Source: Solen grandis
Taxonomy: Eukaryota > Mollusca > Bivalvia > Adapedonta > Solenidae
Assembly: GCA_021229015.1 (NCBI GenBank)
Contig: CM037777.1
Span: 23,849,567-23,913,566 of the forward strand
Direction: 5' to 3'
Length of the DNA: 64,000 bases
A program made the translations under genes and the position numbers. Each line of letters opens with the position of its first letter. Position 1 is the first letter of the stretch. Positions 9,503 through 42,948 of this stretch are shown here, one piece after another. The notes below the pieces were generated by a model. The model was not told the DNA's origin. It made no database searches and saw only the letters and a program-made list of their open reading frames with translations.

Positions 9503-9548
9503 GACATAAATATATGGATATTGGAACAAATATAGTGCAAAGCCTTAC

Positions 9549-11034: not shown

Positions 11035-11430
<396 letters not shown>

Positions 11431-13673: not shown

Positions 13674-14791
13674 GTTTGTATGAGTTCAAATAAAAATATA
13701 AAAAGTTAATAGAATATATAAAAATTAATTAAACAGGTGAAAAAATTCACACCATTGAATTCATTGATATTTAAGATTGAAAAAAAAAAAGATAAAATAT
13801 GATAAGTCATTCATTTCTTTTTTTAAGTTTAGATTATAATAATCTATTTATAAATTGAAAAATAACAATTGATTTTTGACAGGCATTTAAATCTAAATAA
13901 AAAAAAAAAAATTGAATGTGACTTTCAACAGGTATTGTTCTTTTTTCAATTTTTCTATCTCTCTAGTAACAGTAAGAAAGAGAAGGCACCACCTCCCTAT
14001 CCAGATATACATGTACTGTGATTATCCAATATTAAAGAAAACTTAATGAAAAAAACAAACAACAACATTAAAACATTTTTTTAAAATTTAATAAGTAACA
14101 AAAAGCAATGAGGAATTTCCTAATAAGAATATATGAAGGATACTCTATGGAAAAATGCCCACATACCCAATTATCTTCTGTAAAATTTCCAAATAACTGG
14201 CACAACCAGTAAAACATGTACATACATACATACAGACAGACAGACAGAGACAGATAGACAGACTAAAATACTTGAGATTAAGAGAATAAAATACTTTAAA
14301 CATCAAAACTTATCTGTAGACCTGGCAAATGTCCTAAAGTGAGATTTGCTGAAGGTTTAAGTCTTGAGATAGAATTAAAAAAAAATTCTCAGTATTTTTT
14401 TAAATTTACCTGCACTACTGTAAAGAACTGGACACATTGCATGCCTATTTCCTGATTAAACATGGCACATTAAGATGTGTCCTTTTATTTTATCAGAATT
14501 AAATAATAAAACAAATCAAATGAGTTAGACTGCATGAGGTATATGAAAGATACAAAAAAATACACAAAAAAAATTTATTAAGATTTTAAATTCAATACTG
14601 ATATTTTTTTTCCAAAAGGAACATTCATTTTAGAAATGATTAAAATGTTTTAATGGAACATCTTAAAAGATATGTTTAAATATTTTTTCTACAAAATATG
14701 AATTCTATTTATCTTTTTCAATAAAAAGAATGTATTTACTATTAAATAAGGACTTCAAGTTAATATAATATTATGTCTTTCTTCTGAACAG

Positions 14792-15969: not shown

Positions 15970-16323
15970 AATAAACACATGTGTTGAACCGTTCCTCATT
16001 TGAATTTGTGTTAACACTGTTGCTTTAATATTGACGTCATCAAAGTGTGTGTAATACACATTTATAGTTTATCTAGCTGTTACATTTTGAACATCGATTT
16101 GTTCATTGGTTAAAAATTAATTTGAAGAAACCAAAAAATATCGTTACAAATAAAATATTTAATTTAAAAAAGTGTGCCATTTTTGTTACTTTTTTATTTT
16201 TTCTCAGCTACATTATACGGGGGAGGTAAAACGATCGGCAAACTAGAGGTAAGTTCTTCGGTTTAATGTTGCTACGCTTAATAAATGAATCCGAAAAATA
16301 TTATGGAAAAATGTGTTAGAATC

Positions 16324-16494
16324 GAAATAATCTGTCTCTACCGGTGCGTTGTTGTTTATTTACACACAGGTTTGTCGTTCAGGTTCGAATAATTATATCA
16401 CTCGGGCTTCGCCCTCGTGATATAATAATTCGCCCCTGAACTCCAAACCTGTGTGTAAATAAACAACAACGCACCGGTAGAGACAGATTATTTC
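16324..16494. repeat. Long palindrome at the right end of the Crypton-like element
   Basis: Two ~80-base arms (16324-16406 and 16411-16494) are inverted copies with a few unpaired bases and the turn gggcttcgccc. The arms contain the accggtgcgttgttgtttatttacacac sequence that also matches the element's left end, inverted. It could fold as a cruciform or hairpin. Confidence 0.85.
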
Positions 16495-16590
16495 TTAATT
16501 CATAGTCATTCTGACACTCCTCTGATGAAGACTGTATAGTCGAAAGTGCTCGGGAAAATTATTACATATTGCACTGTTTGAATATTTTAT

Positions 16591-16606
16591 TCCCCCCCCC
16601 CAAAAA

Positions 16607-16670
<64 letters not shown>
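16591..16670. repeat. Compound microsatellite C/A-run, (TA)n, (TG)n
   Basis: A C-run, an A-run of over 20, about 12 TA units and about 11 TG units follow in direct succession. Confidence 0.9.
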
Positions 16671-17155
16671 ATTTGGTGTTATTTTGTACCTCACAAAATA
16701 TAAATCTTCTAAAAGTATCATATGATTTTCCACACCCATCAACACTATTTGTTCAATTAAACATGTCACCAAATACAATTTTTAAAGATATCAAAATTAG
16801 ATTAAAAAAACAAGCATAAACATTATATAAACCGCCTTAGTTTTTTTTTGTCACCAGCTTAGTGTATCTCACAAGTACGGTATGTACCTCGATTTGTATG
16901 CAGAGAGATGCCTTAGTGAGATATGGTTTTCCAAGGTTTACCTAGGTATATAACCAAACCAAATAACGAAATCTGACCCTAAACCTAATGTGTACACTGG
17001 CCGAAAAACAGCAACAACAATTATGAAAAATGGTTAACATAGTAATATTATTTGTAAATTTAATATATAAGATTAACTAAAACTCAATCTTATTTTTTGT
17101 AAACAAAAATGAAATAACATGAAGAGAAAATTTAATATAATTAAGAAATATATTA

Positions 17156-17772
<617 letters not shown>

Positions 17773-18677
17773 TAATGATTACTTGTAACTCTGTTCTAGT
17801 GGTAGCATACATTTCTACATCGGACAACTTTGCGTGACTATTTTCAGAAACAAATTTCCCTCTTTATTACTACGCATAGAAATAGTTATTCATTTAGTTT
17901 TGTTTTAGATGTAAATACAACTGCACTATTGAAAACGAAGTGGAAAATGAAACAGAAATGTGTTAATAATCGATGTTTGGTGTAATATTTTAAATAAACT
18001 GTAATAACAAATTTATAATTGAAGCGTACACCGAGAGACTGTCGGCAGTTTTATCATGAAAGAAAGCGCGAGTTAAGCTTACTAATAAGTTGAGATACTG
18101 ATAACCGTGTGGATTTTTTTTTTTTTATTTTTTTTTTACCTCATATGACTTTTGCCTCTATCGAATTCAACCCTGCTTCATTACATTGGTATTTACCTCT
18201 TTGAAAATTCAGATATTTTTGATGGAGGCTATATGTTCCCATTACCTGGTAAAATACATGTAACATGTAACTGTTTGGTTGGTGAGTTAGACTGATATAA
18301 GTTTCAAAGATTGGATACGGCTGCAGGATCCAGGGACAACAAAAGGGCATAGTTGCGGTCATATGCACTTCATCTAATATTGAAATAAATTTATGTTTAT
18401 TGTTGAATGGCTATAATCACAACAACTGTTTTACACAGTTGGCAAATTCCATGCATCGTCTTATTTTCATTCTGACAAATTTACATCAAACTATGATTTT
18501 ATATCTTTGAGAAGTTGAGGGCAGTTTGTCCTACTTTCTATTTTTTTTATTATTTCGTTGAAAATTTGAAAAATACATCGCATAAGATAAAGCGAGAGCT
18601 TGTTGCTATGACAGATTACGTCATGCTAAAGTGTTTCAGCTTTTAACAAATCATGAATATCATGCTGCCGATTTTGT

Positions 18678-18919
18678 TTAACCCTTTCCCTCATATAGAC
18701 TCATTTTGACGCACTCAATAGGTACCACACAAAGCCTGATCTGCAGAAAACCACAGTTAAACCTGACCAAATTTAATTACAAAATCCTCATATCCAGACC
18801 ACTGAGGAGCAGCGAACAGCATAAAACCTGATCAGCCTGCGAGTTACTCGCAGGCTGATCTGGTTTTATGCTGTTCGCATAGGTTTTTACATGGTGTCCT
18901 CTATGAGGGAAAGGGTTAA
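18678..18919. mobile_element. TTAA-flanked MITE (piggyBac-like ends), copy 2
   Basis: 242 bp, same orientation and structure as 17503-17744. Internal arms gcgaacagcataaaacctgatcagcctgcgag pair almost perfectly with ctcgcaggctgatctggttttatgctgttcgc across the turn. Its better preserved terminal pairing suggests it is closer to the source copy. Confidence 0.85.
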
Positions 18920-19070
18920 TGAATTGCTACAGTCAGTCACGCGGATCTGTTAGTCAACCCAGGAGTGGATCTGTACTGTGCATCGCGGGACAGACGTTTT
19001 ATGTGTTAAACGTTTTTCAATATCATATAAGAAAAACAAAAAAATAATCCAATTTCGTTTATCCCTTTTT

Positions 19071-19738
19071 AGCTCACCTGAGCACTTGTGCTCGGGTGAG
19101 CTTTTGTGATCGCCTTTTGTCCGTCGTGCGTCGTGCGTCGTCCGTCGTCCGTCGTCAACAATTGCTTGTGAACACTCTAGAGGCCACAGTTTTGGCCCAA
19201 TCTTCATGAAACTTGGTCAGGATGTTTGTCTACATGATATCTCGGATGAGTTCGAAATTGGGTCATGTGGGGTCAAAAGTAGGTCACAGGTCAAATCTTG
19301 AAAAACCTTGTGAACACTGAGTTCGAAATTGGGTCATGTGGGGTCAAAAAGTAGGTCACCAGGTCAAATCTTAGAAAAACCTTGTGAACACTCTACAGGC
19401 CATAGTTTTGGCCCAATCTTCATAAAATTTGGTCAGGATGTTTGTCTACATGATATCTTGCATGAGTTTGAAATTGGGTCATGTGGGACCAGGTCAAGTC
19501 TAAGATAAACCTTGTGAACTCTCTAGAGGCCTACATTTTTGTCCCAGTCTTCATTAAACTTAATATGAATGATGACTGCATGAATTCCCAGTTGAGTGCA
19601 AATTCAGGTAGGATCAATATGTAGGTCACTTAGTCAAATGTTAGAAAAACACTTTTAGATGCCAGATTTTTTGTCATTATGCCTAACACAGCCATCTTAT
19701 TCAGGTGAGCGACACAGGGCCATCTTGGCCCTCTTGTT
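19071..19738. mobile_element. Helentron-like non-autonomous element (AGCTCACCTG family)
   Basis: Starts with gctcacctga (19072-19081), whose inverted copy tcaggtgagc lies at 19701-19710. Near the start is a hairpin gctcacctgagc...gctcgggtgagc and a (CGTCSGTCG)n microsatellite. The core has tandem units with cttgtgaacactctagaggcc and ggtcatgtggggtcaaaa. Near the end, agggccatcttggccct (19716-19732) can form a stem-loop followed by cttgtt. Subterminal inverted repeats plus a terminal stem-loop fit Helentron-derived elements (family knowledge, not searched). Confidence 0.7.
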
Positions 19739-20435
19739 AATATCAAGCATGAAAATCGAAAAAAAAATTTCAAACACGATCAACGAAATGACGGTATCGA
19801 CACGGACCGTAATAAAGATTCCGGGACTCTAATGTATAAAGTTAAGAATCATGAAAACAATATTATTAAACGAAAGTATATTTTAAGGAAAAAAAAAAAA
19901 AAAAGCAAAAAACTTTATATAATGTATAAAATGTTTACTACCAAATCTATGTATTACACAGAAACAGGACTGAGAAGAAGAAACCCTTGCATCTTTCAAT
20001 TTGTTGATCTTTCAGTTTTTATTCTTTAGGAAACTCGTTTTTGGTTTATTTACATACCAAATCTCGAATCTTTAAAAATCGTTCTGTCTGTAAAATATGG
20101 AATGTACAATCATAGGACTTGCTTCAAAATTTGCAACATTCTTATTGTTGAATAAATATGTAAACATTTCGAACTTTTATCAGGCGTTCAGCGTTTAATA
20201 ATAATTTGCATGTGAAGCAAGTACCAAAATCAAACGTCAATTTACTTGGTACATGACCTTTGAAAACAACTATTAGTAAGAAAACGTCTACTAGCGTTTT
20301 GTATAATAAGAGGGTAGATGTGATACGACAATAATTGACGTTGCACTCAAGTTACAATCCATGGACATGTATGGTAAATAAAGAGAGAGAGTGAGAGAGA
20401 GGGGGGTCTTTAAATTCAAGGGGAGGAGGTAATCG

Positions 20436-20549
<114 letters not shown>

Positions 20550-20578
20550 TTTAACTTGAAGGGGAGGTAATCTCTTAC

Positions 20579-20660
20579 CCTGTTAATCCAATACACCCTA
20601 ACACGACGGTCGCCGGAAGATTACCAATGTTCGGTAAGAGGCGCAAGTTTTCAGTACCCC
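20579..20660 (-). pseudogene. PTGR1-like: PTGR1-like copy A, truncated exon 4
   Basis: Only the 3' part of exon 4 remains: RLLPNIGNLPATVVLGCIGLTG followed by the donor gg|gtaaga. In copy B the exon continues upstream by about 80 more bases to its acceptor. Here the matching sequence stops near 20655-20660, and the next recognisable intron sequence (tctataatacttataatcc) follows almost at once. Roughly 200 bases relative to copy B, including the acceptor and the GWRT segment, are missing. Confidence 0.75.
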
Positions 20661-21476
20661 CAAGTGACTTCCTTTCCCTGTCTATAATACTTATAATCCA
20701 TTAAAATATAAAATTTATGGTAGAAATAGTGTTGTATATCGATCACTTAATGATATATAGTTTAATAATAAAACAAGGAATGTGTTTCTTTTTCAAAAAT
20801 GTTTTTAAATAAGAATTATTATGCCTTTTAATTTGGACTAAATACAGCTACCATTGAAAGTAATAAATATCAATGCTACATCGCATAAATTCGATAATAT
20901 GAAAAAAATACTTAAGAACGATATGGTCTTCCATAATATTACTAAGCAAGTGCATATATACAAGCTATATTCAAACCGGGTTTATATTTTCAAAGATGGC
21001 AACAGTGGAAAAAACGGATTACCAATTTAAAATGCAAAAATTGTTGCTGATAAACGTATGGAATAAGGTGAAAGAAAAATATCTCACGATAGGTACCAGT
21101 TGTGTACAATATCTTTTTTTGTGTACTATTTTAAAAATGTTTAGCGTCTAGTATTGAATTTATCTTGGTGCTTTAACATTTTCTATGGTTTTGTTTACCT
21201 TTGTTTTAAGTGGAATGGAGAATGATCTTCAGGAAATTAAGCAAATCATGCAGTTTTTCTGTGCAGTGCCTGTTTTATTTTATATTGAATTTCTATGTCC
21301 CTTTGTGAAGCGAAGGCTAAAAATTGTTGCCTGTAAGTTATTATGTTTTATTAAGTCGATCAATTATTGAAGATGAAACAATTGTGAAACTGTCTGGTGT
21401 AAGTATCTTATCTGAAAAGATGATACTGAATTCATGTCAGAGCTACTTATCCTCCCCTCCCTTATAAGCTGCCTAC

Positions 21477-21536
21477 CTTGCGACCTGTTCGCCAATCATT
21501 GTGGTTCCGAGTGCTTCATCTGTAAACTTTGCAATT
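21477..21536 (-). CDS. PTGR1-like: PTGR1-like copy A, exon 3
   Basis: A 60-base exon reads IAKFTDEALGTTMIGEQVA with clean borders (ttaacag| and aag|gtaggc). It corresponds to the substrate-domain segment around the TMMGQQVAK region of vertebrate PTGR1. Confidence 0.85.
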
Positions 21537-22155
21537 CTGTTAACATAAATATAAAAAAATCATGAAATTACCAATACAAAGAGAAACAAGTTGTCCGAAG
21601 ATTGCAAAGCTCGCCGTGACCATAAGTAAATGTTCAAACTCAAGTTTCATGGAAATTAAGGTTTCAAATACAGAAAGAAGTACATGTATTTAAATAATCC
21701 ACAGATCTAAAGCAGATAGGGCCGTGACAACTCCTATGATAAACCTCAAACAATGAAGAACGTTGTACATTTTATTCATGTAAGATATATAAATAATAGG
21801 CCACACACCTAAATAGGAACTCGTCTTTCAAAGGTATCTATTTAATGTATAACGATGGTACAAACAAATAGGTACACGTGTAGCTTGCTCGACAGAGGCA
21901 GAATTTCGATATCCGGTATTGGAAATCCCACGATCAGTTATAATGTGCTGCGTTGTAAACAAGCCTTTGCTTCGCTACGCGCTCGATAAAATATGAAATT
22001 GTATCACCACTCAATGAGATATAACCCATATACACACAAAACAAACAAATATCCTCTATTTATGTTTGCAAAACGAAGAAAAAGATGACGATGATGATGG
22101 CGAAGAAGAGAGATGAAAGCCAGCTAGTTATTTGCACGGATGCATGGAAAATTAC

Positions 22156-22201
22156 CTCATATAGGGATCAACACTCAGGAATTCTGCCTGTGTAAGCACC
22201 T
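22156..22201 (-). CDS. PTGR1-like: PTGR1-like copy A, exon 2
   Basis: A 46-base exon between cag| and |gtaatt reads VLTQAEFLSVDPYM plus split codons at both ends. It matches the family block before the conserved Asp-Pro-Tyr-Met-Arg. Length and phases are the same in copy B. Confidence 0.85.
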
Positions 22202-23719
22202 CTGTAAATGACAAAAACAAATTAAGATAACTCGCCTATATATTTTTACAAAGATATGGCCTGGTTTGAAAAAAACAAAAACAACAAACTATTACATATA
22301 AGACAGCAATAAAAACAATAAAGCATTCATGCCGAGACATACAAAAGTCTTAATTATGGATTTTTTAAATGTGTTATATAAATTAATTTGCAAATATTAA
22401 CACAGATAGTTGTAAATATCAACACAGATACTGGTATTTTAGCTTAAACACGCCAAGGTCAAAAATGTGTGCAAACATGGCTGAATGACACACATTTTGT
22501 TATTTGTGATATATGATGATGATATTCAGTTTACATGACCTATATACAAGACATGATATAGATAACGAACTTGATCATGGTGTATTCAACGCATCCTTTG
22601 TTAAAAACATCTCACGTTCCATAAAGTAAATAACTTTAAATATTTTTGATGTGGGATTTTTGCAAATAATCTTGTTTTAATTTGATTTTTACCCTGAAGA
22701 AGTCGAAAACGTCAAGATCACCCACTGTTGTTGTGTAGATCATCTTCCCTCTTCTGCTGTAGTTATTTTTTTCTAACTTGTATATAACTTTTTTTTATTC
22801 AGTATAGAAAACATAGGATTGTCAGAGGTGCTAAAGTTGGCTTTAAAGGTATGGATTTAAAAAGTTAGCAAAGTTGGAACAAAAAACTCAGGAGGTCTTA
22901 ATCGTGGGACATACGACTCTGACAAAAGTTCACCTACTCTGTATAAGCTACGCTACATGAGGATCTGAAGACGACGCATAGACGTACATAATCTTGATAC
23001 ATTTCGTCAGCCATTCAGATCGTAGCTTTCAAGATTTTGAAAATGTCCAAGTGCTTTTTTTTAACGCAGTAATATATGAACTATCACGGACAACCTGAGC
23101 ATGTAAACATGGCTGAACATACGCAGGTATATACAAGTGGTGTGGCAGAGACTTACCATATGCAGTTGTAAGTATCGCAAAATAGTCCTTCTGCATTAAT
23201 CAAACAGATAAATATATCAAGTTGTTTAGGTTTAACTTCATTCCCCATCTTCTCTAAAAGATTCTAACGCTCTGTCGATGTCTGTCGTTTGAAATTTTGA
23301 CTGATTAGCGGAATATCCTTTAAAAGACGTTCTCTGATTGGCTGAGATTTTAATAGATTATATACTAGGAAAAACAATTCTAATGGGTCATCTTCAGATC
23401 TTACCGTCGGAAGATCGTGTATTTTAGTCAGATTGCCATTAAATTCTGCTTAAAAGTATTTTTCCAGAAATAGATGCTTTGACTTCCATCAACAACACTC
23501 AGCCTTAAGTTGTGTTTAAATTCTCAAATTAGGTAGACATGCATTCAACCATCCATTTTTTATTTTTCGAAACAGTCCAAGTACGTGAAAAAGTTGACAT
23601 AAATCATTGCTGCCCAAATAACTAATAATTTTTATCAAAAACGAGAGACAAAAATATTTGGGGAAACAAAGATGATGGTATTCGCCAAAAAACAACAAGA
23701 ACCTTACGTATATTTGTTT

Positions 23720-24620
23720 TACTTAGCGCCAAGTATGATTGGTGGAATTCGAGCCTGGTTTTTATAGCGAATTGCCTTATATCCGAGTTCCTCTTTAAAA
23801 ATATTTGATTGACCAATGAAAACTTAGCTTTTATACCATGCGGGTAATTCGGTGGTATTACATATAATTAACCTATGAGAACGTAGCTTTTATACCAAGC
23901 GGGTAATATTGGTGGTGTTAAACTTTTATTGACCAATGAGAACTTAGTTTTTATTCACAGCGGGTAATATCGGTGGTAGTATGCTCCGGAAGTTGTCGAC
24001 ATTAATTTCGAACATGGGAAATACGAATTCAAAAATTTACGGGTGCATGACAGAAAAATTGACGTGGAAAAAGAAACATAAATTTTAGAATTAGAACAGA
24101 TTTGTTCTAGCCTCAACTTTTTATTAGGAGGATCATTAACAGAAATATGTACCTCGTAATTGGAAATAAAGGTGTTTTTACGCTATCAAAGTCGAAATAA
24201 TGCAGAAATCAAATACGCAATTACGCAGAAAATGTATTATAACGAGAATACAAGGTGTTATTTTTGCTGGAAAACGCATAATTACGCGAACCAAAGGTAA
24301 TTTACAGGATCCAATTCACATATGTGTTTTAAACATCCAGCCCTACAATCAATGTAATGGAAACTGACAATTAAAAGAATTAGCTGTACATTCAACTTAC
24401 AAACGCATTTGTTTTACGTAACAACGCCTTGGTCTTACGTTATGACGAGTTTCAATCTCGCGTTATTACGCCCTTTTCCACGTTAGTTCTAGTATGACTT
24501 TTTAAGCCGGTAAGTATCCCCTTTCTGCATAATAACGCCTTATATTCTGGTTATAATGCATTTTTTTTTCAAAATACGCATTTCCCTGCGTTAATACGAG
24601 CTAAGTAGCGTAAAAAGTTA
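23720..24620. repeat. Upstream region of copy A with degenerate 'taatacgc' repeats
   Basis: Contains three diverged ~60-base units with gaccaatgagaacttagcttttataccagcgggtaat (23810-23970). They are followed by sequence full of variants of gcgttattacgc/gcgtaataacg (24160-24620). Both parts recur upstream of copy B (36310-36884), where they run into the assembly gap. No function can be assigned. Confidence 0.55.
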
Positions 24621-26870: not shown

Positions 26871-26877
26871 ACAATTT

Positions 26878-27125
26878 GACTTGACTATTTGAGTTTACCG
26901 TCGCTTCGACAGTATTTCAGTCATATAGCGACGTCCAGCTAATTACAGGTGGAGGAAGACCCCGAATGCACGGAGGCATCCAGCTAGAACCTCCGACCTA
27001 CCGCAAGCTAGCTGAAAGGCTTCCTCACATAAAAATCCGAATGACCCTGCCGGGATTCGAACCCACGTGGTGAGTGGCTGAGTGACTGTTAATGCCAGCA
27101 ACTTTACCATCTCGGCCACAGAGAT
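26878..27125 (-). mobile_element. tRNA-derived SINE, near full length
   Basis: On the minus strand it begins with the A box tggccgagatgg (complement of 27107-27118, Leu/Ser-tRNA type), then B box gggttcgaatcc (27053-27064). The body and tail cgaagcggtaaact-like end are shared with 11613-11848. It is the most complete SINE of this family in the window. Confidence 0.85.
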
Positions 27126-27199
27126 GGCTTGATGGACAATGCTTCTTCAACAGTAACATAAACAAATGCAATGACAGATCGGTGACTTAAACTTTCGTG

Positions 27200-28024
27200 T
27201 GAGTCTTTTACTGTTACTGGGAACAAGCATAGTCCCTCTTGAATAAAATCTAATTTAAATAGAATTGCAGTATGCATTAATTGGAGACAGTCAGATCAAT
27301 TTGGCGTTTTCCTGGACAGTAAGGTTCTGTAGTATAATGTTAAAGGGCTAATACTAATTCATATATAGTTTGCACAAGTAGATTTAATTTTAATATTTTT
27401 ATTTCTAGCAGAGCATATTTGTTTTTAAAATTGTTTGTTATAATTTGGAAATACACGTAAACGATTTTTTTCTTATCTCACTTTGAATTACATATTTGTT
27501 AAACACCAATACGTTCTTCTGAAATTTTTTATTTTGCATTTTTATAAATGTAAAAAAAATATTCACATAGTATATCTGATGTGAAAAAGTAACGATATTG
27601 TAAAATGTTCAGGCTTAATCTTGTAAGCTTATATAAGACCAAATTTTCCTTGAACTATATAATTCCATTTTTATTTCTGAATTATTAGGTGGTACTGTGA
27701 TTCTTATTGAAAATAATTTTCTTTTGCCATGCTTCACATTGTTATTCTAATAAAGTTACAATTTCAGTTTGGGTAAAAATACAAAAAAAAATACAGCAGA
27801 TTAAGAAAAAAAATAATTTGACCTCAAGCCAGATTATATCATAATTTTATTACTTTGTTACACTACCACCATATAAATGAATTATTAATCAAATTGTGTT
27901 TTTCCTTTTTAGTAATAATGGGAACAATCAGCATTCAAAATGGTATTATGTCGCAAACAGTGAACACTTATAATATCATTTCATAATAAGCCTAAAAAAG
28001 TTATTGAAACTACATGATCCCCCA
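27200..28024. other. 3' flank of copy B, duplicated non-coding sequence
   Basis: AT-rich. The first part matches the region from about 7880. On the minus strand a candidate AATAAA (complement 27846-27851) lies about 175 bases past the stop codon of copy B. Confidence 0.4.
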
Positions 28025-28256
28025 CTACACTTTTACGATTGCCTTTCCAAAGTTTTTGCCCTCAAATAGTTCAATAAAAGCGTCTGGCATCTTGTGAAAT
28101 CCCGTTGTTATGTGTTCCTTGTATTTTATGTCCCCTCGTAGAATCCATTCCGACAGCTGTTTTAATCCTTCCGGCAATAGGTGTCCATACGTGGTCATTA
28201 GGTCAAAACCTTCCACAACTAGTCCCATCATGCTTATTCTGTGAAAAGGATAGGTC
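28025..28256 (-). pseudogene. PTGR1-like: PTGR1-like copy B, exon 8 with one-base deletion
   Basis: After acttttttcag| the exon begins gacctatcc where copy A has gaccttatcc. The loss of one T near 28252 throws the splice-determined frame out. From MMGLVVEGFD on, the other frame is open through HITTGF and EGKNFGKAIVKV to TAG. Only the first few bases are affected, so one base is enough to break the protein before its last 75 residues. Confidence 0.85.
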
Positions 28257-28881
28257 CTGAAAAAAGTGCATATTATCTAAAGCACATTATATTTCATAAT
28301 GATACAATTTTCCTGAAAAAAAAACAACAACACATATTGACATAAAGAAATGGTTTATCATGCGCAAATATCTGCTGTAAAATAGCATTGAAAATGTTAA
28401 TCAAATCACGCAGTTAAGTATTTTAGATGGATATAAAAATAATCTCAATGTTTTCATTTTGCAGTAGGGAGTCTTTCAAAAGACGGCCTGTTATGTGAAA
28501 TAATTCGAATTTTGAAAACTGTTGCCGATCATTATTTGTTTATCTGTTACGTCATCAATTTAAGCACCTGTGATTCGAGAATGAGGTCTTTGAAAAAAGT
28601 CAGGAAATCGACGAAGACATGCGGAATATGCAAATAGGTATTTTTGTAAAGAATTGGATGATCTTTAGTAAAATATCCTTTCTTACTCATGATTTTTAGT
28701 AAAGTTGTCGTCAACAGTTTTGTTCAGATTGCATCTCGTAAAAAATCTACAGGATATATTTTGCTTTACAGTCCGATAAATGTATACACTGCTTTAGGAA
28801 GAGTAATAGGCCTGTTTATGAGTGTGTTTATAGAAATCATTTTAATCCGGACTAAAGACTTATCATGAACTCTGTTATTTA

Positions 28882-29205
<324 letters not shown>

Positions 29206-29944
29206 TCAAGGACAAAAGACGTACTGAATATTTTGGCCTTATTTTTCTGCTAAGATATCTATCCCCATTTTGGCCTACTAAAGGTTGGCTGACGCAAGCC
29301 AATGTCTAATAAATATTTGAGCGATGTTCATTGGTAGATATTCTTATAGATAAACATCCGGAAAAAAGTTACGTACTATTGGTTTTTGAGTCAACAAGCT
29401 GAAATATTTGCTTCGTATTCACGATTGAAAAAAGTATCCTGATGAAATAACATTTTTGTTGAATATATAGTATTTTGTTAGATGCACATTGAGACCTGCT
29501 TCGGGCCGAACGTTATAAATATCTGCACAATCAAAAATCATATATAGTCTATTTCATCGTCTCCGTATAACTGAAATACGGTAAAAGGGACGTTTTGCAA
29601 ACTTATTATCTGTGATTATTCTGGCTTCTTAGAATAAAACGCTTCACGCATAAAAAAACGCACATCATATAACTGTCCTACATTCTCCATTGCATTAATC
29701 CCCATCAACGCCGCATATCTTTTTTTAAAAAGAGATAATTCTTGTTTATGTTAAATGTACTAGGCGAATTATAAGGTTTGACCTAATTGCAATATATATG
29801 GATATCCCAAAATCTCTCAGATAAAATTACCATATAATGATTGAGCTATTGATGTCCTTTTCAAACTATATGATGAATATAATCAACCATTATAATCGAA
29901 CAATATCATGATATATCTTAATTCTGGAAAGAACTGGTTTATTA

Positions 29945-30190
<246 letters not shown>

Positions 30191-30652
30191 AACATGAGAC
30201 GAGAATGTTATAAAAAAAAACATTATACAATTTTAATAAAAAAGGAAGAACATAATTGAATTAAAATAAAAAAATATGTGAATATGGTTTAATAAAAAGT
30301 CCAGCGTTTATCAATGATAGGCTTAACGCAATATCAAAAAGCTTTATTACCATTATATCAACCCATGACTTTTGTGTAGCCATCTTAATATGATACACAA
30401 CTACGGCCTGTATCTCGATTTGTATGCAGATTGATGTCATAGTGTGGTATGGTTTTCCAAGGCTCACTAAATTATGCAACAAAACCGAATTACAAGATCT
30501 GACCCGAAACTTAAGGCTTACACTCGCCCATAAACGGCAACAACAATAAGGATAAAAGTGATGGTGACGGTAAATAATTTTGTGAAATCAATGTAAAAGA
30601 TTTACTATAGCTAAATCTAATTCTTTGTAAATGAAAATGAAATAACAGTTTA

Positions 30653-30841
<189 letters not shown>

Positions 30842-31138
30842 CTATTCTTAAACGTATCAAAATATATTTTTTGATAATGATTGCTTGTAACTCTGTTCTA
30901 TGGTAGCATACATTTCTGCATTATTTTTTTAAAAACAAATTTCTCTCCTTGTTACTACGCGTAGAAATATTTAGTTTCTACATTATCACACAGTGATCTT
31001 AATTTGTTTTCTTTATTTAAGTATGACTGCATTATGGAAGTCGACATGTTATTGATATATATTTGAAAAATCAGTGAGACAAAGGTTATTCCAAGTATAT
31101 GATCCCATTAACTTGTAAATCAACATTTTGGATGGAGG

Positions 31139-31141
<3 letters not shown>

Positions 31142-31180
<39 letters not shown>
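31142..31180. repeat. (AT)n microsatellite
   Basis: About 19 AT units, in an intron of copy B. Confidence 0.9.
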
Positions 31181-31181
<1 letters not shown>

Positions 31182-32206
31182 GGTTCATAAAAGTTTTAAA
31201 GTTTTTTTAGGCTAATGGAAATGCGTTTAACACTTAAGATTTGTCAGTGTGTGAAGAAAAAACATTTTTTTTATATCTTTCAATTTTTATTTTTTAAGAA
31301 ACTCATAGCTGAAAATCTATTTTGTTTACTAAACATTTTTTTTTAATAAAAATACTGAATCTTTAAAAACGGTCTGTCTGTAAAATATGGTAAGTACAAT
31401 CAAAGGAACTTCTTCAAAATTTGCAGCAATTTTATTGTTGAAAAATATGTAAACATTTATAACTTTTATCACGGCGATTAGCATTTAATATTTATCAGTG
31501 TGTAAAGAAGGAACCCATTTGTTATATTTTTAAATGTTTGTTTGTTAAAATAATTGTAGTTAAAAATGTCTTTTTTAACATTTTTTGTTAGCATATTGAA
31601 TCTTTTAAAGCGCATTGTCTTTAAAACAAGGTTAGAACAATCAAAGGACCTTCTTCAATATTTGCGGCATGTTATTTATTTAAATATTTTTAACTTTTAT
31701 CACGGCAATTAACATTTAATATCTATCAGTATGCGAAGAATAAGCCCATTTTTTATATCTTTCAATTTAATTCATTAAGAAACTTGTAACTAAAAATGCT
31801 TTTAAAACAATTATAAACATATGGAATCTTTAAAAGCGTATTGTCTGTAAAAGAAAAGAAGGTATATACAATATTTGCAGCATTTTCTTTGTTAAATAAA
31901 TATGTAAAAATATGAACAGTTATCACGGCGTTTAGCATTTAATATTAAACAGCATGTGAAGCAAGTACCTAAAATCAAACTTCAATTTACCTTGGTACTT
32001 GGCTTTTAAAAGAATTTATAAAAAACAACGTCTACTTGTGTTTTGTATAATTAGAGGGTAAATGTGATATGACAATTATTGACATTATACTCAAGTTGTA
32101 ATCCATGGACATGTTGGTAAGTAGAGGGGAGGGGGAGAAATTCAAAGGGGAGGTAATCACTAAGTAGAGAGAGAGTCTTTAATTTCAAGGGGAGGTAATC
32201 TCTTAC

Positions 32207-32367
32207 CCTGTTAATCCAATGCAACCTAAAGCGACAGACGTTGGAAGATTACCGATGTTCGGTAAGAGGCGCACATTTTCAGACTTCACCTTCGAGACGG
32301 TTCGCCAACCCGGCATCCAATCACGTGACTCCCGATCGGGAAGTCGTCTGACTTGCTGTCTGTCACC
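32207..32367 (-). pseudogene. PTGR1-like: PTGR1-like copy B, exon 4 with one-base deletion
   Basis: 161 bases from atcacag| to gg|gtaaga. The first frame reads VTDSKSDDFPIGSHVIG. The second, shifted by one base, reads PGWRTVSKVKSENVRLLP and then LGCIGLTG. Both halves match the family (V-x-SK...F-P-G and GW-T...LGTVGMPG), so one base was lost near 32314. This is the only place in the window where the full exon 4 can be seen. Confidence 0.85.
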
Positions 32368-33290
32368 CTGTGATGAACGATACCCACCCTAGTTGGTTAC
32401 ATAAGTCTTTTAACCCTTGGAAATTATATGACAATTCTGTCTGGGTGCCTTTTTACAAAGTGTAGTTCCTAGATAACAGAAGAGTTTGTATCCCTCTACT
32501 CATTGTCTATAATACTTATAATCCATTAAAATATAAAATTTATGGTAGAAATAATGTTGTATATCGATCACTTAAGGATATACCAATTTAAAAATAAAAC
32601 ATATTTTCTCAAAATTGTATTTAAATAACAATTATTTTGCCGTTGAGCTGATATTGCAAATAATGAATACTAAAGCTACATCGTACAATAATATGACAAT
32701 ATATTTACATACGAGACACAAGTCAATATATGACACAAATGGTCTTCCATAGTAAGTGAGTGCATAAATACGCACTATATTCAAACCGGGCATATCTCTT
32801 CAAAGATGGCAACAGTGGAGAAACGAATTAAAATGCAAAGTTTGTTGCTGATAAACGTACGGAAAAAGGTTAAAGAAAAAATATCTCATGATTGTTACCA
32901 GTTATGGTACATTTTGAATGTGAGGACGCTGTTACGCGTTGTTTAGTAGTGTATTCTTCCTGGGTGTTTTTAATGTGTTTTATGGATGTGTTTACCTTTG
33001 TTATTGTTCGTCGCGTTTATGTGGAATGAAAAAATATAATAATTCAGGAAAATGAGCAAATTATGTAGTTTTCCTCAGTGTCTATTTATACTTCATAGCC
33101 CTTTGTGAAGCGAGGGTTAAACTGGCTTCGTGTAAGATATTATGTTTCATTGAACAGATCCATAACTCAAGCTGTATCAATTGTTTAATGTTACGGTTTG
33201 TGAGGAAGTGTTTAAAGTGAAAAGATGATAATAAATTCATGTGAGAGCTGCTTACCTCCCTTTATAAGCTTTCCATTAAAGTAGGCCTAC

Positions 33291-33350
33291 CTTGCGACCT
33301 GATCCCCAGTCATTGTGGTCCCGAGTACTTCATCTGTAAACTCCGCAATT
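33291..33350 (-). CDS. PTGR1-like: PTGR1-like copy B, exon 3
   Basis: 60 bases reading IAEFTDEVLGTTMTGDQVA between taatag| and aag|gtaggc. Four or five residues differ from copy A, all without breaking the frame. Confidence 0.85.
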
Positions 33351-34347
33351 CTATTAATATAAATATAAAATCATCCTAAAATTAAAAAAGAGAGAAATAA
33401 GAAGTTGTCAGAAGACAACAAAGCTCGTCGTGACCAAATCCTCAAACTCAAGTTTCATTTCAGATACAAATAGAAGCTATTTAAATGATCCATATATCTC
33501 AAACAGATAGGGCCGTGACAACTTTTATAACAACTACGAAATAAATCATATAAAAAAGATTTTGTGCATTTTATTCATGTAAGATATGTAAAAAAAAGTA
33601 ACACGTATAAACACTTACTCGTCATTCAAGCATATTTGTCTATTATATAACGATGGTACGAGCAAACAGGTGGCACGTATAGCTTGTCCGACAGAGGGCA
33701 TTGGATTTGGATATCCGGTATTGGAATTCCCACGATCAGTTATAACATGTTGCGTTGTAAACAACGCAATATAAAAACAGTGAAGATGATTTAGGGATGC
33801 AATGGAAAATAAAGAAAGACAACCTATGTCTTGGAACGCTGTGCTTAAAGAAGCCTTTGCTTGTACTTATATAATTTTCTTTCATCAAAATGTTTTCCAG
33901 ACGAAACTACACTCAAGTTGCAAAATGTATTGCTTTTCTGAGTTTGAGTTTTTGTGCATAATTGCATATACTATCTTCAGTTACAATGGTCTTGACCTTA
34001 GACTGAATGACCTATTGACCTCAAACCCAATTACAATCTTTGTCTACCCACTAACTACATACATTTTCTTATTTTGGTTTCAATATCTTCAAACTTAAGT
34101 TTTTGCGCAAAAACAGAAGTTTGACGCCCCGTCCAAGGATATACCCGAGAACAATCAACGAACGTAAAACTGCATAATGCGGGAAAAATAGTTCAGAGAA
34201 AGTGATTTGAATGAATAGATATTTTGCTTCGATTCTAAATACTTATTTATATAAACCGATTATATCTCTCTCTGGGAGGAGGAAGGAGAAGAGGAAGAAG
34301 AAGGATGAAAGTTAGCTAGTTATTTGCACTGATGCATGGAAAATTAC

Positions 34348-34393
34348 CTCAAATAGGGATCAACGCTCAGGAATTCTGCCTGTGTTAGCACCT
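34348..34393 (-). CDS. PTGR1-like: PTGR1-like copy B, exon 2
   Basis: 46 bases, cctttcag| to |gtaatt, reading VLTQAEFLSVDPYL. The Met of DPYMR in copy A is Leu here. Phases as in copy A. Confidence 0.85.
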
Positions 34394-34399
34394 CTGAAA

Positions 34400-36043
34400 G
34401 GAAATAAAAAGTATTTTTAAAATTAATAGCATTATAACATTGTTTATGACACAAACAAATTTAAGATAATTCGCATGTATCTTTTTACAAGCATAATTAT
34501 GCCATGGTTTTAAAGAAAAACTAGTACAATGTGACATATCGATTGAACCTAGATATTTTATGTCATTTCAGTGGTCTTTATTTCTTTAATGGGTTGCTCA
34601 CAGATTTGTCCCTCACTGACGTCAGATTTGCTATCAAATCAAGGGAAATGCATCGGAAACTGCGTAGAGTTTTCACTCGGTTTAATAGACAAAAAGGCAT
34701 AAATATCATACGCACTGCCGGTGATAAAGGAATCCATTCGAATTCCCTTTATCTTAATTAACTGACACCTAGGCCTGTTGTCAGTTTGCATCATGTGTAC
34801 CGCTAATCAAAACAAAACAAAGTATCAAATGTAAGTCGCGTGTAACACATAGACTCACTGGTTTGCAGAATCAAGAGACTGGTTTGCATAATTAACACGG
34901 GTATTGCGCAACCAGTCTGATAATAATCGAGAGGCGTTATCTCCCTTGGACAAGATCCCGCTTTAGCTAGTTTTACTTTGCAACCGAGACCGAAATTGGT
35001 GCTCGTATTATTGAGGCAAAAATGATAACAAACATACGGACCGCAAATTTTGGCCGCAATACAATACATGCCGAGACATACAAAAGTCTCTATTAGGGAT
35101 CTTTAAATGTGATCGACAATGAAGCATATATAAAAATATATTTGTGTATAAGACATGATATAGATAACGAACTTAAACATAGTGTGTTCAACTTGTCCTT
35201 TGTTAAAAACCTGTCACGTTCCCTAAAGTAAATAACTTAAATACTTTTGGTGTGGGATTTTCGCAAACTATCTTGTTTGGACTTATTTTGTCTTGTACAT
35301 AACCTTTTTTTCATTCAGTATAGAAAATGCAGTTTTGTCAGAGGTGCTAAAGTTGACTTAAAAAGTGTGGATTTTAAGAGTTTGCAATGTTGGAACAAAA
35401 ATCCCAAGAGGTCTTAGCCGTGGGACATTAATCTGACTAAAAAAAAAAAACAACACCTACTCTATATACGCTACAGGACGTTCATATTCTTAGTACGTTT
35501 CGTCAGCCAATCAGATCGTAGCTTTCAAGATTTTGAAAGTGTTCAATTTCTGTCTTTAACGCAGTAATATATGAATTATAACGGACCATCTGAACATGTA
35601 AACATAGCTGAACATATCAGGTAGACTTACCGTATCCAGTTAGAAGTATCGCAAAATAGTCTTTTTTATTAATAAAACAGATAGATATACATGTATCAAG
35701 TTGTTAGGTTTCAGTTCGTTTATTCCAATATTCTCTTAAACAGATTTTACGCTTTGTCGATGTCTGTCTTTTGACATTTTGACAGATCAGCCGAATTTCC
35801 TTTGAAATACAAAATGTACGTTCTCTGATTGGCTCTTATAGCTTTTACTCGGATTGCCATTAGATTCTAATTAAAAATATTCTTTCCAGAAACAAATTGT
35901 CGAAACCAATCAACAACACTAAGCCTTAAGTTGTACTAAGTAGAAAAACATTCCACCATCCCACTTAAAATTACGAAACAATCCAAGTACATGAACAAGT
36001 TGACATAAATCATTGCTGCCTAAATAATTCACACTATTTATCA

Positions 36044-36083
<40 letters not shown>

Positions 36084-36884
36084 GTATTTTTTTCATCACA
36101 GAAATAAGGATGATGCTATTCACCCAAAAGTACATTTTGTATTACTAAGCGACAAGTATGATAGGTGGAGCCTGGTTTTTATAGCGAAATTGCCTTCTTT
36201 AAGGGTTCCTCTTAAAACGAGATGTACAGTATAGTTATTAAGATGATAATAATTAGTGTATACAGTTCTAGCATTAAGATAATTGGTTTGCTTCCTATTT
36301 TTTTATTTTAAGAATCTGATTGACCAATAAAAACTTAGCTTTTATACCCAGCGGGTAATATCGATGTTATTAAATCTTATTGACCAATGAGAACTTAGCT
36401 TTTATTCACAGCGGGTATTATCGGTGGTAGTATGCTCCGGAAGTTAACAACTTTGATTTCGGATATGAAAAACACGAATTCAATCATTTCTGGGTCGTAT
36501 GACAGAAAAACTGAAATGGAAAAAGACGCACTTGTTTAAGAACTTTAAACGGATCTGAACGAAGTGATCTAGCCTCAATTTTCTATGGTAGAAAATGCAG
36601 GACTTGGTTTTTGTTTGTTTGTTTTTGTTTTTTAACTTTTGCAATGAGGCAGTTACAGTATATACGAAAGCCTATTAGGAGGATCTTTTAACTCGTAAAA
36701 ATGCAGAAAAATCACGTTATTACGCCAAAGAGGCATTACAACGAGAAAATAAGGCGTTATTTTACGGAAAAAAGGCATAATTCATCACGAACCTTTAATC
36801 CTTAATAACGCAAAACAAATCCATTATAACGTAAAAAGACATAAAAACACAAAGCTGAAGCTTGTAATACCGCAAAAGGGCGTT
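34400..36884. other. Intron 1 / upstream region of copy B
   Basis: Follows copy A block by block (for example cgcaaaatagtc...cagt near 35645 and 23175, then gaccaatgagaacttagctttta near 36380 and 23935). A segment at 34500-35070 has no match in copy A and is probably inserted. A (GA)n microsatellite lies at 36046-36078. Exon 1 would be expected roughly 300 bases beyond 36884. Confidence 0.5.
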
Positions 36885-36984
36885 NNNNNNNNNNNNNNNN
36901 NNNNNNNNNNNNNNNNNNNNNNNNNNNNNNNNNNNNNNNNNNNNNNNNNNNNNNNNNNNNNNNNNNNNNNNNNNNNNNNNNNNN
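36885..36984. other. Assembly gap of exactly 100 N
   Basis: A run of 100 N marks a join of unknown size. The left side matches the copy A upstream region to within ~310 bases of exon 1; the right side is unrelated transposon-derived sequence. Confidence 1.
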
Positions 36985-39190: not shown

Positions 39191-39331
39191 AATGTCACAT
39201 CACCAAACATTCCATCACTCATGTGCCAAATTAATGCCCTCAAAATGGCTGCAAAGTTATTGATTTCAAAGGGCTGTAACTTCAAAGCAAGTTTTCTTAC
39301 ACTTAAAATCAATTTATGGTAGGATCGTTTT

Positions 39332-39793
39332 CACGGCAGGGAATCACGTGACTTTTATGGTAACGCGCACGAACGTCATGGCGGACTAAAACCTCCGATT
39401 CAAAAGGAATTTTCAGGTAATTTTATATCTGATCATTCATACTTTCGAATAAGATATTCCGCAGCCTACGCGGAATGGAATATTGTTATCAGCCATACCT
39501 TATTTTTGTCCTTATGCCTATAGTTTTCTCAAACACTTAAAAATTCGAACGTCTTTTTCAATTTTGGCAATTATTTTTCGGATAACTTCCACGGACAGTA
39601 TGTATTTTTGTAACGAACATGGTAATATAAAGGATAAATAATTCAGGAAAAAGTCTCATTATATAACTTCATCTGTGAATGTATTTTTCCGCTTTTTGAA
39701 TTATCACTACTAGGTTTATTTTATGAATAAAAAGTGGAAAATGATTTGGGTAACGCCCACGGAATGAAACATTCCTGATAACCCCCACGGAAA
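39332..39793 (+). repeat. Left inverted terminal repeat
   Basis: 462 bases from cacggcaggg to acccccacggaaa. It contains four copies of a ggtaac-(3/4)-cacgg type word (39359, 39580, 39749, 39777) and a small palindrome attccgc...gcggaat near 39455. Confidence 0.9.
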
Positions 39794-40083
39794 TCCTTAA
39801 GTAAAACAATATTACTTTTAAATGTAACTGAAATATTGATTTAATCAAATTGTAGCCTATTCACTTATATGTGTGAGAATAGAAATGTCATTTGATATAT
39901 ACATGCACTGAACTTTAAATGAAATATAAAACTATTGAACTACCCTGTTTATAAGTACATATTTATATATAAAGTTTGTTCTCATAGTAGTAAACAAAAC
40001 TCTGATAAAAGTTAATATTCAGATGAGATAAATATTCACAGAATATCTTTTCAGAATTTCTTATCATTTTTTCTTTCAGAAAT

Positions 40084-40158
40084 ATGGCACGTAAAAAATC
40101 TCGCCTAACTCTCCAGACAACTAAGAGTCATCTGAAAAGAAGACGGACATCCGGGTAA
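40084..40158 (+). CDS. Short basic ORF, possible first exon of the recombinase
   Basis: From an ATG, MARKKSRLTLQTTKSHLKRR, with a GTAAAT donor-like sequence at 40158. Basic N-termini of this sort precede recombinase domains. Another frame just downstream (40190-40318) reads a similar basic SPMKSPYKSPLYKESPVRKK. Intron or frameshift cannot be told apart from sequence. Confidence 0.35.
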   Translation: MARKKSRLTLQTTKSHLKRRRTSG

Positions 40159-40384
40159 ATGCCACAAACCTACATTTCTTAAGTCACCAATGAAATCTCC
40201 TTACAAGTCTCCATTATACAAAGAGTCACCAGTTCGGAAGAAAATTAAACTTAATTTTGCTAGAAAATTATTTGTCTTAGGAACTGCGATATGTTTAAAC
40301 CAACTGAAGTGGAAATAGTTTTTTTTTTTAAATTATTTAAGATGTTTAAATAGAACAACATACAGTTGTATAAACACACATAAA

Positions 40385-41131
40385 GTGTCTAAACTGGAAA
40401 CTTTGAAACTTGTTAATAATTCTTTGAATATAAATTCGGTGATGATTTCACGTTTCATGAAGGGGATGTTTAATTTTAAACCACCAGTCCCGAGATATAA
40501 TTTTACGTGGGATGTTTCTGTTGTACTCAATATGTTGAGAAAATGGACTCCATTAAATTCACTTTCACTGAAGCATTTAACTTTTAAGTTGGTTGCACTG
40601 CTAGCATTGTCAACTGCTGCTAGAGCACAGACTTTAGTGGCTTTGTCTTTGGACTTACTGAGTTGACATACAGATAGTGTGGTTTTTTGTTGTGGAGATA
40701 AGTTGAAGTCTTCAAAGCCAGGTGTTCAGTTTTATTTAGAAATTAAAAAATATACAAATAAAGACATTTGTCCAGTTAGGACCCTTGATTATTATATAAG
40801 ATCTACTTCATCTGTAAGGAAGGACCAACAATTGTTTGTGTCATTTGCAACTTATAAAGCTGTGTCTAGTTCTACTATTGCTAGATGGCTTAAGTGTGTA
40901 CTGCAGTTAGCAGGTATAGATATAGACACGTTCAAAGCACACTCTTTTAGAAGTGCTTCGACATCAGCTGCCTTTAAGGCTGGTTGTTTTATCAGAGACA
41001 TTTTGAAAACTGAAAATTGGTCCTCTGCTAAGAATTTTGAGAAGTTTTATTTAAGGGAGGTTGAATGTATGACATCAGACTTTAGTAGATCTGTACTAAA
41101 TACTACAAATTTAGCTTTGTTATTTGTGTGA
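40385..41131 (+). pseudogene. DIRS/Crypton-type tyrosine recombinase with one in-frame stop
   Basis: One continuous frame is interrupted only by TGA at 40664-40666. Before it are RFMKGMFNFKPP, RYNFTWDVSVVLNML and ALSTAARAQTL (catalytic Arg). After it are DSVVFCCGDKLKSSKPG, HSFRSAST (His-x-x-Arg), ENWSSAKNF (Trp in place of the last His, as is common in this family) and FEKFYLREV (nucleophile Tyr). The order and wording match the recombinases of animal DIRS-like elements (recalled). All catalytic residues survive, so the stop is probably recent, or it could be read through or be a sequencing error. No gag or reverse transcriptase is near. Confidence 0.75.
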
Positions 41132-42387
41132 AGCATGATGCTTCTCAGAAGTTTTTGTTATTTTCATCCAAGGAACAATTCATTGTTTTGGAGAGCAATG
41201 GTTGCTTTTTGTGTTACATGTATATTAAGTGAGTTATATTACATGTATTTTTTTATATAGTTTGAAGATTTTGTTATCAGTGGATGATAAGATTATGTAT
41301 TTTGATGATATTTTGTATTAGATGTGCAACTATTTTGAAATATTAAGTATAAAGCACATTTATGTTTTGTTTATTATGTTGACTCTCTTTAAAGATGCCA
41401 ATTGAATATATATTAGAGGCCGAAGGCCTTATGAAAATAATGGAACCCCCATCCTAGCACTTGGTGTAACGGATGGGGGCCATTATTGGAATGGGGCCAG
41501 AGGCCAAAAATATATATATATTCCCTCCCTGTTACTAGCCCCCCGCACATGAATATGATTTTAGTGTCAACATAATTTCTTTAAAGCTATGAGTTAACCT
41601 GTGCAGTTTCGGGTGGTTTTATGGAGATATGTCACGTGATGTAGTGTTGTTTTTAACTTAAAGGGCGATACAGTCGTGGTAAGTTTTATTCGTAAACAAT
41701 TGAATGATCTTGGGTAAAAGATTATTTCTTATTTATGCATTTTTATGACTTAGATGATAACGAGAATGCATTTCAAAACGAAACTGTGGCTCACATTTTG
41801 CTTTTCTGTTTCATGAATTTAAACTGCTTTTTGAGGCTTAATGGGCCTTAAATGTAAAATATGAATGAACATTGTTATTTCAAAATGTCTTAGAAAATGA
41901 CTTTTAGAGGGGTACTTTTGCAAAGCGACACATGAACAAACTGCGTGCAAAAATGTCAACCGTAAAGGCATAATAAATTATGCACTTCCGGACTTTAAGC
42001 TCAGACTTTCGTTTCAACTATGTATTGTCTCATATTGAGAATTCATCAGAATACTAGCTTTTATTACCCTAATGCACAATGTTTGACAGAACATAATAAT
42101 TTCAGTGCCCCCCCCCCCCCCTTTTTTTTTTTGTAAATGATCCCCTTTAATTGAATGCAATATGTGTTTTATGCCCTCATCCTTTTCAGATGGTGACATA
42201 AGGCATTTCACGAAATGCACGTTTTATAAGAGTTATATTGCCTCAATGACTTCTACATGCAGAACACAGTATCAAGAATAGTATTGTTATTGATATTTCG
42301 TCGTCTTTTTTACTATGAAACTCTTAGATTTTATTCACTCAGTATATTTTGGGTTTGATCAAAGCATTTGTTAATAAAACAAAATAT
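41132..42387. other. Non-coding 3' part of the recombinase element
   Basis: No ORF. At 41419-41510 inverted words (gaggccgaaggcctt / ggccagaggcc; cccccatcc / ggatggggg) suggest a foldable segment. A C-run and T-run lie at 42110-42130. Confidence 0.5.
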
Positions 42388-42851
42388 TTTCCGTGGGGGT
42401 TATCAGGAATGTTTCATTCCGTGGGCGTTACCCAAATCATGTTCCACTTTTTATTCATAAAATAAACCTAGTAGTAATAATTCAAAAAGCGGAAAAATAC
42501 ATTCACAGATGAAGTTATATAATGAGACTTTTTCCTGAATTATTTATCCTTTATATTACCATGTTCGTTACAAAAATACATACTGTCCGTGGAAGTTATC
42601 CGAAAAATAATTGCCAAAATTGAAAAAAGACGTTCGAATTTTTAAGTGTTTGAGAAAACTATAGGCATAAGGACAAAAAATAAGGTACGGCTGATAATAA
42701 TATTCCATTCCGCGTAGGCTGCGGAATATCTTATTCGAAAGTATGAATGATAAGATATAAAATTACCTGAAAATTCCTTTTGAATCGGAGGTTTTAGTCC
42801 GCCATGACGTTCGTGCGCGTTACCATAAAAGTCACGTGATTCCCTGTCGTG
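42388..42851 (-). repeat. Right inverted terminal repeat
   Basis: 464 bases, the inverted copy of 39332-39793, ending ...ccctgtcgtg. Differences are isolated substitutions and one-base changes in T- or A-runs. Confidence 0.9.
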
Positions 42852-42948
42852 GTTTTGCATGGTGAAAATCTATATATACACCTATTGCTTTTTCTCAAGG
42901 AAAGTAACTGTTTTGCTTACATTTAATTAATTCGTCTGCTAAACTGTC

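Follow-up and report, generated by a model that had tools for sequence, protein, structure and literature searches.

A long-TIR DNA transposon of Solen grandis that very probably carries a captured fragment of a DIRS1-like retrotransposon

In a stretch of 64,000 nucleotides from the bivalve Solen grandis (NCBI GenBank assembly GCA_021229015.1, contig CM037777.1, positions 23,849,567 to 23,913,566 of the forward strand; hereafter the window), an element of about 3.5 kb at 39332-42851 combines long, nearly identical inverted ends with a tyrosine recombinase (YR) gene. An earlier note on this DNA had proposed that it was either a DIRS-derived non-autonomous form that kept only the recombinase or a distinct class of DNA transposon. 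We find it very probable that the element is instead a non-autonomous DNA transposon with long terminal inverted repeats (TIRs), which captured a fragment of a DIRS1-like retrotransposon, is likely moved by a TIR-binding transposase from other copies and carries the YR as dead cargo. The ends occur in many copies with varied 5-bp target duplications, copies without YR retain both flanks, the insert is 97% identical to DIRS elements of the same genome, and a remnant of the transposon's own gene ends where the DIRS sequence starts. What looked like a new kind of element, with long ends and a recombinase alone, arises because one element lies inside another.

The inverted arms, 39332-39793 and 42388-42851, agree at 456 of 462 aligned columns, with six mismatches and two one-base gaps, and the 5-base direct repeat noted before is exact on both sides: GTTTT has its last base at 39331 and is found again from 42852, while the chance of equal 5-mers at two random window positions is 0.00166. 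All six matches to the motif TAACNNCCACGGA in the 64-kb window lie within the two TIRs, and these sites are likely bound by the transposase. The parts of the transposon are as follows, with element (el) coordinates counted from 39332.

39327..39331, no strand: left target-site duplication GTTTT, an exact 5-bp repeat at both element ends.
39332..39793, + strand: left TIR, 462 bp, starting CACGGCAGGGAATCACGTGAC, 456/462 identical to the right arm.
39583, 39751 and 39779, within 39583..39793, + strand: sub-terminal motif TAACNNCCACGGA, mirrored at 42598, 42430 and 42402.
39794..40271, + strand: left interior of the TIR transposon; el 1-873 (to 40204) is 97% identical to the YR-less copy L013, and protein similarity runs on to 40273.
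41682..42387, + strand: right interior of the TIR transposon; el 2351-3520 is 94-98% identical in L010-L015, L022 and L025, and 84% in L017.
42388..42851, - strand: right TIR, 464 bp, from the arm-to-arm alignment and copies in the same genome.
42852..42856, no strand: right target-site duplication GTTTT, an exact 5-bp repeat.

A search of the S. grandis genome (1.32 Gb, 811 contigs) with the TIR gave 40 scored copies from 467 candidates, and 20 stretches (L010-L029) were fetched. We tested 13 paired copies, comprising 11 with TIRs 77-100% matching those of the element and two relatives. Exact 5-bp direct repeats flank nine of them, all different (GTTTT, ATTTT, GTCTT, ATTAT, GGAAT, ACGTA, ATACT, TATAT, and AATTC); two more have 6-bp repeats and two have none. 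The latter, L017 and L018, lack a repeat at their BLAST-defined ends; L018 gains TGAAA if one end is moved by one base. Because the duplicated sequences vary, they point to staggered cutting by a transposase and not to a fixed YR core. One copy of 2496 bp (L013) aligns at 97% to el 1-873 and el 2351-3520 with 443 bp of its own between them and has no YR, and among L010-L029 only L010 contains DIRS proteins or the element's DIRS piece. The earlier note had allowed for a chance inverted duplication if neither another copy nor an empty site were found; nothing speaks for such a non-mobile origin, and the many dispersed copies with target duplications refute it to the point of practical impossibility.

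Three side observations concern these copies. An open reading frame (ORF) near the TIR in L023 (1438-2256) has no clear match, and one in L024 (5611-6039) has a weak match to Mutator-like elements (MULE, 0.0009, under the cut-off); both are perhaps further captured or nested pieces. The TIR copies in L028 and L029 (C1:12714335-12714798 and C1:12781931-12782388) lie about 67 kb apart, with flanks that are mutually reverse-complementary, as from an inverted segmental duplication.

Between the two flanks lies DIRS sequence, preceded by a remnant of the transposon's own gene.

40084..40273, + strand: what is left of the 5' coding part of the YqaJ-protein gene native to the transposon (MARKKSRLTLQ...); compared with L013, a 14-bp deletion shifts its frame.
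40272..41684, + strand: DIRS1-like retrotransposon fragment, 1413 bp, read here as captured; 97.0-97.4% identical to L031, L032 and L033, and 91% to L034.
40273..41131, + strand: tyrosine recombinase gene of the DIRS, 3' part, disrupted by a frame change at about 40320 and a TGA at 40664-40666, with the N-terminal ~80 residues absent.
41387..41525, + strand: DIRS internal complementary region, a quasi-palindrome that pairs with itself, resembles a stretch of L001 and matches the right inverted terminal repeat (ITR) ending ATT in L033.
41526..41684, + strand: DIRS spacer from the internal complementary region to the right ITR, aligned in L031-L034; the right ITR itself is absent.

When the genome was searched with 40273-41525, full-length matches were found at 97% in L031, L032, and L033 and at 90% in L034, and the DIRS identity is confined to 40272-41684, ending there on both sides. 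The element thus holds a foreign internal fragment whose source lies elsewhere in the genome, as in Pack-TYPE-like capture. Among these resident copies, L033 encodes a reverse transcriptase (RVT_1, 4.3e-17), L031 has an uninterrupted 367-aa YR frame across the stretch that is broken in the element, and RNase H/methyltransferase (MT) lies upstream of the YR in L031, L033, and L034 and not in L032. Beyond the spacer, L031-L034 continue with the complementary region repeated in inverted orientation. In L033 the right ITR, which is absent from the element, follows the internal complementary region at a distance of about 190 bp and ends ATT. L032 is a 5'-truncated copy (from L032 1491) that has the DNA downstream of the DIRS end in common with L033; the two are probably related by duplication and not independent insertions, to judge from these shared flanks. 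The 97% DNA identity to resident DIRS makes a YR phylogeny unnecessary for tracing the origin of the recombinase.

The stretch behind the YR, laid out like a DIRS internal complementary region, has a counterpart outside Solen. Positions 41387-41504 are 76% identical (E 2e-13) to the equivalent place in a Solemya DIRS contig, L001, the sole stretch encoding a YR relative among 24 pattern matches in the genome collection. L001 encodes a reverse transcriptase (PF00078, 2.6e-18) and a YR 49% identical to that of the element, followed by a quasi-palindrome that recurs in inverted form where the contig ends. It is worth recording that this contig, NZ_MPRK01000170.1, is a DIRS retrotransposon in a bacterial assembly, that of a Solemya elarraichensis gill symbiont, and is likely contamination from the bivalve host. 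In the mollusc DIRS table, in the available part of PMC3266345, four of five elements combine ATT ends with an AAT junction, while ITR length is 66-175 bp in all five. An overlapping-frame test for the DIRS MT motif gave three matches among the 120 YR relatives listed, and 15 of 2400 shuffled proteins matched as well; the motif lies near the N-terminus in P0006 and P0095, as in L001, and looks like chance in P0035, and we regard this result as supporting only.

Could the whole element then be a DIRS retroelement that lost its reverse transcriptase and RNase H and retained its own inverted ends and recombinase? The YR, the internal complementary region, and the spacer are all DIRS, and the six-frame Pfam scan of the element, empty at E<=0.1, bears out the claim that it has no reverse transcriptase and finds no RNase H either. 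However, we consider this very improbable. The 460-bp ends score against the internal complementary region no better than shuffles do, the region itself has no match above shuffles in the TIR or the interior, and no match of this kind to the TIR ends was found above shuffles inside the element. Because the ends are matched neither by the internal complementary region above shuffles nor by anything else in the element, the YR and the 460-bp ends are of different origin. The ends are also found on copies without DIRS sequence, and only two of 20 DIRS-hit loci, this element and L010, have the 460-bp TIR, which is lacking in the other 18 and in L050, upstream of L033; conversely, the element lacks the short ITR of L033. 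DIRS integration is moreover described, in the available part of PMC3266345, as leaving no target duplication, whereas GTTTT stands on both sides here. The element resembles the DIRS1-like elements of Mollusca treated there (LgDIRS, AcaDIRS) in that its insert has the 3' part of a YR and an internal complementary region; it differs as an internal fragment without reverse transcriptase, RNase H, or ITRs, placed inside the TIRs and target duplications of another element. The proposed DIRS derivation therefore stands for the recombinase and fails for the ends. A reverse transcriptase between the same ends, which would have made the element a simple DIRS deletion, was not seen; L010 has a DIRS RNase H piece between such ends, again as a fragment.

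The recombinase itself had been taken as one gene with all its catalytic residues. In a read-through translation the conserved columns R, K, HxxR, W, and Y, which we take to be the catalytic residues, are indeed retained (R95, K123, H201, R204, W227, and Y237), but the gene is not intact. It reads as two ORFs, 40385-40666 and 40679-41131, separated by a stop; its frame shifts at about 40320, and its similarity to the relative P0008 begins at residue 80 of that protein. The YR and the upstream transposon reading frames are not joined, and no fusion protein is readable from the element as it stands; a 126-bp intron (40155-40280) whose removal would bring the N-terminal peptide and the YR into one frame was rejected, as its apparent donor is accounted for by a 14-bp deletion in what is a continuous frame in L013. 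The YR ORF matches Phage_integrase at E 0.0018, under Pfam's own cut-off, and has no match to DUF3504, and a sequence search of PDB gave no match at E<=1. Relatives numbered 285, of which the best 120 were listed (Dreissena and Patella are named among them) and 19 were chosen for alignment, and the read-through is 44-62% identical to these 19. In viral contigs, 3 and 64 stretches had YR patterns, none encoding a relative, and a 20-base TIR pattern had no matches. One feature tells against a long-dead passenger: the piece matches 39 of the 40 columns invariant among the 19 chosen relatives, as expected of a recently live gene. This conservation fits a recent capture and, taken alone, would leave room for use of the YR.

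Two explanations give the recombinase a function. In the first, the element represents a distinct class of DNA transposon whose own YR acts on the long inverted ends via a circle; the YR does lie between long ends, and joined ends with GTTTT would resemble a YR core site. We nevertheless regard this as highly unlikely, for copies without YR have moved with the same ends, nine different target duplications were found, the YR is broken and N-terminally incomplete with DNA that is a DIRS copy, and in the 20 fetched stretches the YR of other copies occurs only as a DIRS fragment. The element is thus a DNA transposon, as had been suggested, but not one driven by its YR. In the second, a composite element would be moved by a DDE transposase while the YR resolved intermediates, as the available part of PMC3212892 describes for the Tec elements of Euplotes. 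The TIR transposon and the YR are physically together, but the YR is found in no other fetched stretch save L010 and is truncated and frame-broken here, and hardly any weight can be given to this idea.

Returning to a captured fragment as dead cargo, the junctions show how the two sources meet. On the left, transposon coding sequence runs to 40273 and DIRS sequence starts from 40272; on the right, AGT (41682-41684) is common to both sources. P0125 matches 40166-40273 (56% over 36 aa, E 5.7e-7), and two stretches, 40054-40146 and 40181-40273, show similarity to the protein encoded by a 9.1-kb relative (E 4e-5). At the position of the DIRS piece L013 has its own 443 bp and the element has no DIRS end, and because of this we would favour the capture of a fragment rather than a simple insertion. 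Part of the transposon interior would then have been replaced by 1413 bp from a DIRS1-like retrotransposon of the same genome. This piece may have been copied or joined in while a gap in the transposon was being repaired or, alternatively, may have entered when neighbouring copies fused, a route proposed for Pack-CACTA in the available part of PMC13317346.

The second DIRS-carrying copy, L010, belongs to the same transposon family and has the target duplication ATTTT; at 1414-2609 it contains two DIRS pieces that face opposite ways. The RNase H-coding piece is 98.4-98.9% identical over 456-546 bp to L031, L033, and L034, and the piece with the YR and internal complementary region (~640 bp) is 95.5-96.0% identical to L031-L033 and 83% to L034. 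Since this YR piece is no closer to that of the element (95.5%) than to resident DIRS copies, the captures in L010 and in the element look separate; each has its own target duplication, and the DIRS matches examined included no further copy carrying the element's insert. Both ends of L010 are right-hand halves, the outcome expected if adjacent copies had fused.

Alternatively, a DIRS, whole or already truncated, might have inserted in the transposon and lost its ends later. We give this course some probability, but clearly less than one-step capture; it starts from the same materials and is inseparable from capture by sequence identity. A resident copy also counts against the capture reading here: L032, whose locus lacks the transposon TIRs, breaks off 9 bp before the element's DIRS start on the upstream side, so that truncated DIRS with nearly the element's left break exist outside the transposon, and the left break may be older than the arrival of the piece. 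On the other hand, insertion followed by deletion requires deletions that took each DIRS end together with adjoining transposon DNA, and the two opposite DIRS pieces of L010 (RNase H of up to 546 bp and YR with internal complementary region of ~640 bp) are easier to obtain by template switching.

If the YR piece is dead cargo, the transposase that binds the TIRs would be made by other copies, and its candidate is a DDE-type enzyme, probably the large YqaJ-domain protein of the family. The N-terminal remnant alone gave three candidates and no match as a protein query; the query succeeded with the longer piece of the YqaJ-family protein retained in L016, a copy that shares 98.5% identity with the element in the left TIR. 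With this piece, 28 related proteins were found at E<=0.01, with Dreissena, Mytilus, and Pinctada among them. In P0131 (919 aa), the conserved motifs FDGKKL and SFDGQWH enclose a YqaJ nuclease domain that passes Pfam's cut-off (8.4e-9), and the protein matches the lambda-exonuclease family at 1.2e-9, under NCBIfam's cut-off; at E<=0.1 YqaJ was found in three of 21 aligned members, many of which are short. A 9105-bp relative at C6:61456916-61466020 (L051, L056, and L059-L061), with AATTC on both sides and a 563-bp TIR match that is 95% alike, holds this protein (YqaJ E 8.8e-7) between its TIRs, as well as a C2H2 zinc-finger ORF. None of its listed ORFs of at least 90 aa reads as YR by eye, no YR search having been run on it. 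Another element of 2977 bp (L057 554-3530), which has 277-bp TIRs, is flanked by TATAT and encodes 364 aa from the N-terminal part of a YqaJ-family protein, is a third related family, while no TIR was recognised at the copies of the YqaJ-protein gene in L052 (C4) and L053 (C2).

Several observations weigh against this choice of engine. Pfam gives no clear DDE match, with a weak TNP-like_RNaseH_N match in two of the 21 members (best 0.0055). The AlphaFold model of P0131 has a mean pLDDT (predicted local distance difference test) of 60 and is interpretable in its nuclease part only; its structure matches at E<=0.001 number five, of which four are chains of lambda-exonuclease type and the fifth is R354. 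The 9105-bp relative belongs to a related family, with ends CACTGTGGGGAATCACGTGAC about 74% like those of the element over 59 bp, and its YqaJ-protein gene is divided among four open pieces. A complete, autonomous copy bearing the exact TIRs of the element was not found.

By the features tested, the element is not a DIRS, Crypton, Kolobok, or ISL2EU element. It resembles Transib/RAG-like elements in a 5-bp duplication and ends beginning CAC, features that we take to be theirs too; Transib TIRs are presumably far shorter than those seen here, no RAG1-like Pfam match was found in the family proteins scanned, and the putative catalytic part is modelled at low confidence. Pack-TYPE and Pack-CACTA elements, in the available part of PMC13317346, are likewise TIR elements with captured foreign DNA as passenger, and the two right-hand halves of L010 fit the neighbour fusion proposed there, but our cargo is a retrotransposon fragment, the host is an animal, and the TIR superfamily is unplaced. 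Kolobok, in particular the KolobokE lineage, offers a DNA transposon with a lambda-exonuclease-like nuclease and is present in molluscs; according to the portion of PMC9587614 available, it has TTAA duplications and 5'-RR..YY-3' ends, whereas ours are varied 5-bp duplications and 5'-CA..TG-3'. ISL2EU is a TIR transposon that encodes a YqaJ domain but, in the available text of PMC4482050, duplicates 2 bp, AT, and has its YqaJ domain encoded by a second ORF, unlike the 5 bp found here and a YqaJ inside a large putative transposase. Cryptons share the presence of a YR; as described in the available part of PMC3212892 they have short terminal direct repeats and no TIRs, in contrast to the TIRs of the element and its YR without a DUF3504 match.

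A second YR, of Crypton type, lies elsewhere in the window and separate from the element, as an open 393-aa frame at 14788-15966 (+) with matches to DUF3504 (8e-12) and Phage_integrase (1e-6). A run of exactly 100 N at 36885-36984 is an assembly gap, 7850-24124 and 26876-36586 share repeated stretches at ~69-90% identity, as from tandem duplication, and Rfam and tRNA scans of the window were empty.

No description of the host transposon family was found in a search of the open-licence literature. It is conceivable, although rather unlikely, that the family is an undescribed superfamily of animal DNA transposons, with CAC..GTG ends, TIRs of 277-563 bp, 5-bp duplications, and a transposase of ~1,000 or more residues with a built-in YqaJ/lambda-exonuclease nuclease; this nuclease may drive a gap-prone repair through which fragments of DIRS and other elements are repeatedly acquired. 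Capture of other DNA by TIR transposons is known mostly from plants, and in S. grandis two DIRS-carrying copies, the element and L010, are documented in one TIR family and look like separate captures. These results remove a false lead for a new class of YR transposon, which arose from one mobile element holding the gene of another, and they indicate a family of long-TIR transposons with a nuclease-bearing protein that has relatives in bivalves.

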